From positions 1,120,001 to 1,184,000 of the forward strand of contig NZ_CP101827.1 of assembly GCF_024498295.1 (NCBI RefSeq): a stretch of 64,000 nucleotides of DNA. Direction: 5' to 3'. Positions 18,916-20,999 of the stretch are shown here, piece after piece (positions within the stretch are counted from its first letter, which is position 1; every line of letters begins with the position of its first letter). A program made the translations under genes and the position numbers. The notes under the pieces were generated by a model. The model was given only the letters and a program-made list of their open reading frames with translations. It made no database searches and was not told the origin of the DNA. This DNA comes from Thermocaproicibacter melissae (GTDB lineage Bacteria; Bacillota; Clostridia; Oscillospirales; Acutalibacteraceae).

Positions 18916-18953
18916 AAAAAGGGCACAAAGAAACCCTTGGATTCTTTGTGCCC
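18916..18953 (-). terminator. Terminator of ispH-S1
   Basis: 12-bp perfect stem GGGCACAAAGAA/TTCTTTGTGCCC (18921-18932 with 18942-18953), followed on the minus strand by TTTTT (18916-18920). It starts 16 nt past the stop codon. Confidence 0.95.
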
Positions 18954-18968
18954 TGCAGCGCATAGAAA

Positions 18969-20963
18969 TCAGTTATTTTCGGATTCTTCGGCTTTTTCTG
19001 CCTGTTCTTCCAAAAGTGCGCGGATGGAAAGACTTACGCGGTGTCTGTCGAAATCAATATCCGTAATCTTCGCTTTCACCACATCGCCGACTTTGAGAAC
19101 ATCCTGCGGTTTTTCAATGCGGTGATCCGCAATCTGGGAAATATGAATGAGACCGTCAATGCCCGGAATAACCTGAGCGAATGCGCCGAAGGTGGTCAGG
19201 CCGACAACTTTAACATCCAGAACGGTTCCTACCGGGTACTGATTCTTCAGAATCACCCACGGGTTATCTTCTTCTTTCTTGTAGCCGAGAGAAATCTTGC
19301 CCTTCTCGCGGTCAAGCGCTTTGATATAAACCGTAACGGTGTCTCCCACGTTGACGACTTCGGAAGGATGCTTAATTCTCGTCCAAGACAGTTCGGAAAT
19401 GTGAATCATACCGTCAATGCCGCCAAGGTCTACGAATGCGCCGTAAGAGGTCAGGGACTTGACAACGCCGGTGTAAACCTTATTCACTTCCGCGGTCTCC
19501 CAGAACTTCTCTTCCAATGCCTTTTTCTCATCGCGTAGAACGGAACGGATGGAACCAACTGCACGCTTGCGGCCGCGGTTGACCTCAATGATGCGGAACT
19601 TAACCTGCTTCTTCAGGAGATCTTCCAATGGATCGTTGCGGGATGCGGTAGCCTGCGAAGCAGGGATAAAAATGCGCACGCCCTTTCTAACGACGATTAC
19701 GCCGCCCTTGACAACTTCGGTAACTGTTCCCTCGAGAACCGTGTTATCTTCAGCAGCAGCAACAACTTCTTCCCAACCCTTAGCAGCGTCAAAACGCTTC
19801 TTGGAAAGCATGATTGTTCCTTCCTGGTCGTTGGTACGCATGATAAGGAGGTCCATCTCATCTCCGACTTTGACGACATCCTCCGGCTTTACGTTCGGAT
19901 CAGCCGAAAGTTCAGACGCAGGGATGTAACCGGCCTGTTTTCTTCCGACATCCACAAGGACTTCGGTCGGTGTGACACCAACAACAACACCGTGGACCTT
20001 TTCATCGGTATTCAAGGTCTTGAGGGATTCTTCGAGCATTTCTTCAAAACTGCCCTCGGCCGGATTCTCCTTCGTATTTTCTGCAGCAGCTTCACCTGCC
20101 GTCTGCGTCGTCTCATTAACTTCTGACATGGTATCAAATACCTCCTTTATAATGCTTGCCGGCGTGGAAGCACCAGCAGTAATGCCAACCCGCTTGGCCT
20201 TTTTCAAGGCCTCAATCGGAAGCTCGTCCACGGCTTCCACAAAAAAAGTATTGCAATTCGCGCGGCACACATTGAATAGCTTAGCGGTGTTGGAACTTTC
20301 CCTGCCGCCTATCACTATCATTGCGTCACAGGCGCGTGACAATTCAGCCGCTTCCTTTTGGCGAATTGCAGTTACATTACATATTGTATCAAAAACAACC
20401 GCATTTGTATACACTTTTCGAATGATTTCCAAACAATTTTCCCACTCTGCAACGCTAAAAGTCGTCTGTGATACAACACAAACAGGGCTTTCTTTCAGGT
20501 TCTCCTGTTCGGAAGTAATCTTCTGGAGTTCCGCTGCGCTGCGGAAAACAAAGCTCGGCCCGCTGCAGTGCCCGAGGATTCCCTGCACCTCCGGATGGTC
20601 CGGATTTCCGGCGACTAAGACGGTTTTACCCTCTGCGGAAGCTTTTTTGACGATTGCATGAATTTTCGCAACAAACGGGCAGGTCGCGTCACAGAAGGAA
20701 AGGCCTCGTTTGGCGATTTCGTCATAAACATTTTGCCCAACTCCGTGAGAACGAATGACCAAAGTGGCATCCTGCGGAGCTTCGGCAACATTTTGTGCAA
20801 TGGTAACGCCGCGCTCCTCAAACTCCTTCAATGTCTGAGGATTGTGGATGATTGGGCCGAGCGTGCAGACTTTCTTGCCTGCATCAAGAAGCTCGGAAAC
20901 CATTTTGACTGCCCGACTCACACCGAAACAAAAGCCGGCCGAGGAAGCTACCGTAATCTGCAT
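18969..20963 (-). CDS. ispH: Fused 4-hydroxy-3-methylbut-2-enyl diphosphate reductase (IspH) and ribosomal protein S1
   Basis: A 664-residue two-part protein. Residues 1-278 are IspH, the last MEP-pathway enzyme. Its three cluster cysteines are in SSAGFCFGVSRA (C12), FCDATCPFV and DTICNVTAIRQ, plus IRSHGVG and GITAGASTPASIIKEV. From about residue 310 four S1 RNA-binding repeats follow (EKVHGVVVGVTPTEVLVDVG; NTVLEGTVTEVVKGGVIVV; NKVYTGVVKSLTSYGAFVDL; GTVLDVKVVGLTTFGAFAQV). The fusion is known in Clostridia. An internal AAAGGAGG plus ATG at 20129 would give free S1 of 386 residues (see findings). It ends the rpiR-flavoprotein-cmk-plsC operon and has its own terminator. Confidence 0.95.
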   Translation of the reverse strand: MQITVASSAGFCFGVSRAVKMVSELLDAGKKVCTLGPIIHNPQTLKEFEERGVTIAQNVAEAPQDATLVIRSHGVGQNVYDEIAKRGLSFCDATCPFVAKIHAIVKKASAEGKTVLVAGNPDHPEVQGILGHCSGPSFVFRSAAELQKITSEQENLKESPVCVVSQTTFSVAEWENCLEIIRKVYTNAVVFDTICNVTAIRQKEAAELSRACDAMIVIGGRESSNTAKLFNVCRANCNTFFVEAVDELPIEALKKAKRVGITAGASTPASIIKEVFDTMSEVNETTQTAGEAAAENTKENPAEGSFEEMLEESLKTLNTDEKVHGVVVGVTPTEVLVDVGRKQAGYIPASELSADPNVKPEDVVKVGDEMDLLIMRTNDQEGTIMLSKKRFDAAKGWEEVVAAAEDNTVLEGTVTEVVKGGVIVVRKGVRIFIPASQATASRNDPLEDLLKKQVKFRIIEVNRGRKRAVGSIRSVLRDEKKALEEKFWETAEVNKVYTGVVKSLTSYGAFVDLGGIDGMIHISELSWTRIKHPSEVVNVGDTVTVYIKALDREKGKISLGYKKEEDNPWVILKNQYPVGTVLDVKVVGLTTFGAFAQVIPGIDGLIHISQIADHRIEKPQDVLKVGDVVKAKITDIDFDRHRVSLSIRALLEEQAEKAEESENN
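20127..20148 (-). promoter_or_regulatory. Internal ribosome-binding site and in-frame ATG for free ribosomal protein S1
   Basis: Within the ispH-S1 frame the minus strand reads AAAGGAGG (20141-20148), an 11-nt spacer, then ATG (20127-20129) opening MSEVNETTQTAGEA. The site falls exactly at the junction between the IspH and S1 parts. The sequence is direct observation; its use in translation is inference. Confidence 0.6.
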
Positions 20964-20999
20964 TTTACCCTCCTGCTGATTGCAATGTCAGCCATTCGT

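Follow-up and report, generated by a model that had tools for sequence, protein, structure and literature searches.

Evidence for a ribosomal protein S1 gene nested in frame within ispH in Thermocaproicibacter melissae and related clostridia

The IspH-RPS1 fusion is known as a "Rosetta stone" protein (Chem Sci 2015, PMC4746011; NCBIfam NF000907), and the full-length C. thermocellum form has been purified from E. coli (PMC4746011). The fused S1 was the basis of a hypothesis put forward in that study, namely, that the ribosome carries an Fe-S switch connected with the stringent response. The fusion described there belongs to the same gene family as the protein examined here, which passes the NF000907 cut-off. 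In PMC4746011 the gene is treated as encoding one polypeptide, and neither a start codon nor a Shine-Dalgarno (SD) sequence nor proteolysis is mentioned in the text. A 46-kDa protein obtained together with purified C. thermocellum IspH-RPS1 was considered as a candidate for free S1 and rejected; it was identified in that study as E. coli Rho (69% coverage; PMC4746011) and is therefore no evidence for free S1. A multi-omics study of C. ljungdahlii (PMC6203783) was also considered and set aside, as RpsA is there assigned to Clju_c41620 and ispH is not mentioned.

Internal in-frame starts are a known mechanism. Cas11 (Cas11b) arises from internal in-frame initiation in cas8/cas10 (PMC11899642 and works cited there), which likewise involves one open reading frame (ORF), an internal start and a C-terminal part that is also made alone. 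The small product in that case is a subunit of the complex of the long product, whereas in ispH-rpsA it would be an entire ribosomal protein already known in its own right, and a promoter is nested there as well. The RpnL/RpnS gene-within-a-gene toxin-antitoxin system (PMC10327210) also uses an internal in-frame start, that of RpnS, but its proteins are unrelated to those considered here and include no ribosomal protein. No report of a nested start or promoter in ispH-rpsA was found in the literature searched, most subscription papers being outside that search. As far as we could find, it is new for this mechanism to involve a whole ribosomal protein gene lying in frame within a metabolic gene, promoter and ribosome-binding site (RBS) included, with the start kept across a phylum.

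The window, by which we mean the whole 64,000-nt stretch of DNA that was analysed, carries on its minus strand an ORF whose full-length match exceeds the curated NF000907 (bifunctional IspH/30S S1) cut-off, fulfilling membership of that family (Table 1). In a profile search PF02401 had a single match in the genome, making the fusion its sole ispH; the remaining S1-domain matches of the genome lie in ORFs other than the fusion. The product read from an internal ATG at the domain junction fulfils membership of NF005208, the family of stand-alone four-domain 30S S1 proteins of Firmicutes, and has four PF00575 matches. From SFEEMLEESLKTL on, it aligns to the N terminus of E. coli bS1, and both begin at the same place. 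Unlike stand-alone Firmicute S1, rpsA in the window has no separate ORF, and its start is in frame inside ispH. An Rfam scan of the region gave no match.

Table 1. Features of the ispH-rpsA locus (positions in the window)
Feature	Positions	Strand	Evidence or remark
ispH-rpsA fusion ORF, 664 aa	18969..20963	(-)	NF000907, 722 bits vs cut-off 624
SD (AGGAGGG) and ATG of full-length fusion	20961..20974	(-)	sequence
IspH domain, residues 1-278	20130..20963	(-)	PF02401, 312 bits
-35 element TATACA of putative internal promoter	20406..20411	(-)	4/6 (-35)
Putative extended -10 TGATACAAT, 17 nt after -35	20383..20391	(-)	9/12 plus TG; predicted transcript start near 20376
Hairpin 8-10 nt upstream of internal SD	20157..20178	(-)	third-codon positions covary
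Internal SD AAAGGAGG	20141..20148	(-)	sequence and conservation in relatives
Internal ATG, putative start of free S1, residue 279 of fusion	20127..20129	(-)	sequence, conservation, least structured mRNA of gene
Free ribosomal protein S1 (inferred product), 386 aa	18969..20129	(-)	NF005208, 373.6 bits vs cut-off 368
S1 domain 1	19797..20015	(-)	PF00575
S1 domain 2	19545..19751	(-)	PF00575
S1 domain 3	19278..19490	(-)	PF00575
S1 domain 4	19020..19235	(-)	PF00575
Terminator-like hairpin and T tract, 3' of rpsA	18919..18938	(-)	sequence; terminator-like sites overall not above shuffles

At the junction the minus strand reads ATAAAGGAGGTATTTGATACCATGTCAGAA, comprising AAAGGAGG, an 11-nt spacer and the in-frame ATG. 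The 3' end of the 16S rRNA in this genome is GGATCACCTCCTTTCT (...CACCTCCTTTCT) in three copies, and AAAGGAGGT is therefore a perfect 9-nt match to the anti-SD. The site thus meets the criterion of an SD complementary to the 16S 3' end at a working distance from an in-frame start codon, although a spacer of 11 nt is rather long, which counts against an internal start. The initial annotation had reported this SD, its spacing, the ATG and a product of 386 residues with four S1 repeats, close in length to stand-alone Firmicute S1; the SD, spacing, ATG and product were confirmed here from the sequence and the PF00575 matches. When GGAGG followed by an in-frame ATG 5 to 13 nt on was counted inside 53 genes of the window (57.6 kb of coding sequence), 6 such pairs were observed, compared with 5.7 +/- 2.3 in synonymous-codon shuffles. 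Since this count was at chance level, relatives were compared. The pair cannot be distinguished from chance by this genome alone; it lies far beyond chance once relatives are included.

Junctions were read from the order and class of the window, from named genomes and from the phylum. Flags reading "1 TAA inside" at some junctions were considered and dismissed, as they mark no stop at the junction. The class-level set held 274 distinct fused genes, with non-redundant sets of 203 genes below 80% identity and 92 below 60%. GGAGG and the in-frame ATG were present in all 274, at a spacing of 11 nt in 255, 8 nt in 18 and 5 nt in 1. The codon for Glu at residue 274 was GAG in 203/203 genes of the first non-redundant set and in 92/92 of the second, while GAG accounts for 44% of Glu codons in the same genes. 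The preceding residue varies among the class-level fusions (Lys, Glu, Arg, Gly, Met, Thr or Leu), and its third base is always G. Among 620 to 622 columns ranked for synonymous constraint, all drawn from the same alignment and hence sharing the phylogeny of the site, the two SD codons ranked second and fourth below 80% identity and first and second below 60%. The criterion of SD conservation at synonymous positions was thereby met. The residue after the internal Met was Ser, Thr or Ala in 199 of the 274 class-level fusions, as at true N termini. These counts are not independent, since the sequences are related; a sign test restricted to independent pairs had too little power, as well-supported branches provided only four of them, about 3.6 of 4 agreeing (p 0.125).

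The simplest rival explanation is that amino acid and codon usage constraint alone yields AAG GAG GTN and the ATG, without any function. In its favour are the position of KEV near the IspH C terminus and the chance-level count in the single genome. Against it are the invariant GAG where 44% would be expected and the retention of G through every exchange of the preceding residue. The ispH genes that lack a downstream rpsA provide a further control, as GGAGG was found in 1/22 of them, with Leu or Ile instead of Met at the start-codon position, and GAA, GAT and GAC are used by stand-alone ispH at the SD Glu codon. Where rpsA is adjacent and has its own SD further on, the corresponding ispH codons are AAC GAA GTA, GAT GAC GTT, AAA GAA GTA, CAA GAC GTG and the like, with one exception (L297). 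Coding constraint as the sole cause is all but excluded.

Further controls were provided by relatives in which the two genes are out of frame. In six families (f16, f5, f47, f59, f85 and f129), the rpsA frame differs from that of ispH, the same SD is present and an ATG or GTG start follows 9 to 13 nt later, with IspH stopping a few to about twenty codons further on. In f129 (L362, L364, L366-L369 and L372) the genes overlap and the rpsA start is GTG after the same SD. Because the frame is broken between SD and start, S1 in these families can start only at that site, and they constitute natural frameshift tests of it. The IspH tree requires eight or more changes between the fused and the overlapping state, and one genus holds both (G566 overlapping, G634 fused).

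That fused and overlapping states interchange might suggest that the site is a decaying relic of formerly separate genes. The proteins, however, are often less than 60% identical and the SD is nevertheless intact, GGAGG being found at the site in 342 of the 352 distinct fused junctions of the phylum, whereas decay would be expected of a relic. Loss was confined to family f175 and, with replacement, to f123, which makes the relic a very improbable explanation. In the five f123 junctions (L380, L410, L428, L432 and L434) the SD and start are lost from the usual site, and AGGAGG and ATG occur together about ten codons downstream, e.g., GCAGGAGGTATAGACATG. Three other junctions (L406, L411 and L429) have GAG GGG GTT in place of GAG GAG GTT, giving a weakened SD (GAGGGGG), and retain the ATG 11 nt on. 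The f175 junctions (L357 and L382-L385; three distinct fusions) lack both an SD and a Met at the usual position, a second S1 match is also missing, and this family may possibly depend on the fusion alone or on cleavage. The GAGGGGG and f175 junctions count against the internal start. More generally, free S1 might be released by proteolysis of the fusion in a variable linker instead of by internal initiation. The linker after residue 281 is indeed variable, its alignment columns not being scorable, but proteolysis does not predict the conservation of SD, ATG and promoter. It could act alongside internal starts but, with the possible exception of f175, not in their place, and as a general alternative we regard it as most unlikely.

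A second peak of synonymous constraint was observed within ispH at residues 175 to 196, with residues 192 to 194 among the most constrained columns. In the consensus of this region, aat..TaAAAAAagt.T.TACAAA.gc...aaTtTTTGATACAATATGTAaTGC, an A-tract is followed by a -35 element and, 17 nt on, by an extended -10 TGATACAAT; the version found in the window is TATACA-17-TACAAT, also with the TG. The extended -10 was found in 227 of the 274 class-level fusions and was absent from 47; in the non-redundant genes it was present in 161/203, against 20.8 expected from codon usage. The -35 was TATACA or TGTACA in 176 of the 227 fusions with the -10 and TTGACA in some, and the -10 ended 247 to 268 nt before the ATG in nearly all. 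The region thus met the criterion for a sigma-A promoter, hexamers 16 to 18 nt apart that are conserved beyond codon need. It is retained in some overlapping or separate relatives with rpsA downstream (L280, L306 and L302). Most deeper lineages of the phylum lack the promoter and have SD and ATG intact; the RBS is therefore near-universal and the promoter clade-specific. The 4/6 match of the -35 and the absence of the promoter from those 47 class-level genes and from most deeper lineages weigh against it. Promoter activity is inferred from the conserved sequence, there being no RNA data and no mapped transcription start.

We consider it very likely that a complete rpsA gene lies nested within ispH in the same frame and that free S1 is made in the cell beside some IspH-S1. 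This is inferred from the sequence elements, their conservation and the frame-broken relatives, without expression data. That free S1 is made separately is suggested because the RBS and start codon, and in relatives of the window also the promoter, are preserved far beyond the need of the protein sequence. According to this model, ribosomes initiating at 20963 would produce IspH-S1, and 30S subunits binding AAAGGAGGT in the last IspH codons would initiate at the ATG at 20129 to give a normal 386-residue four-domain S1; initiation there is itself inferred. In most species of the class of the window, a sigma-A-type promoter in ispH (TATACA-17-TGATACAAT) would add an mRNA for S1 alone, its leader being about 250 nt long. 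S1 is needed at the level of ribosomes and IspH at the level of an enzyme, unequal needs that a two-product locus fits. The nested start and promoter would let each protein reach its appropriate amount, although the product ratio is likewise inferred.

The initial annotation had proposed an internal start yielding free S1 beside the fusion, and comparison with relatives supports this, protein production not having been observed. It had suggested aligning the junction in many fusions, which was done here and showed the SD conserved at synonymous positions and the start kept at a working distance. Its caveat that the SD could be a chance product of coding constraint is rejected by the GAG codon, by the ispH genes without rpsA and by the out-of-frame relatives. 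Its statement that one mRNA would give both products is probably incomplete, because the conserved promoter in ispH, which it had not seen, should add a shorter S1-only mRNA.

Hundreds of clostridial genomes are annotated with fused S1 only. Given that a nested start and promoter are conserved, the S1 on most ribosomes may be the ordinary form. The locus is a clear case of a ribosomal protein gene whose own promoter and RBS are retained within sequence that codes for a metabolic enzyme, and the frame-broken relatives serve as natural controls. S1 can be made from either arrangement, yet in-frame forms outnumber out-of-frame overlaps about 20 to 1, and so the fusion itself may also be selected; shared ancestry could, however, explain the excess as well. 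A bolder reading, which we offer only as a possibility, is that both products are under selection, free S1 being the bulk ribosomal protein from the nested promoter and start and IspH-S1 a minor S1 isoform that takes an Fe-S enzyme onto some ribosomes, in a proportion that depends on how the two promoters are balanced.

Nowhere else in the gene was the mRNA as little structured as around the internal ATG (mean -3.7 versus -8.5 kcal/mol), and synonymous shuffles folded more strongly in the ATG region, by 0.8 kcal/mol (t 3.9) and 1.2 kcal/mol (t 5.4). Structure 30 to 45 nt upstream of the ATG was stronger than in synonymous shuffles. At the upstream hairpin (Table 1), residues 263 and 268 show base-pair covariation at their third codon positions, with a z of 4.7 where the highest background value for the same spacing was 2.8. 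This was repeated in the phylum set (z 4.7); in stand-alone ispH the z was 1.4 (n=31). The hairpin bears on a remaining alternative, in which the SD-like codons would cause a programmed pause at the domain boundary, aiding IspH folding before S1, without any initiation. The site does lie exactly between the two domains and the covarying hairpin precedes it. A pause nevertheless leaves unexplained the start codon kept 5 to 11 nt downstream, the joint move of SD and start in f123, the out-of-frame relatives that are forced to start there, the Ser, Thr or Ala at the second residue and the open mRNA at the ATG, and as a substitute for internal initiation it appears very doubtful. With internal initiation as the preferred reading, S1 autoregulation, ribosome spacing or a pause are candidate roles that the hairpin might have.
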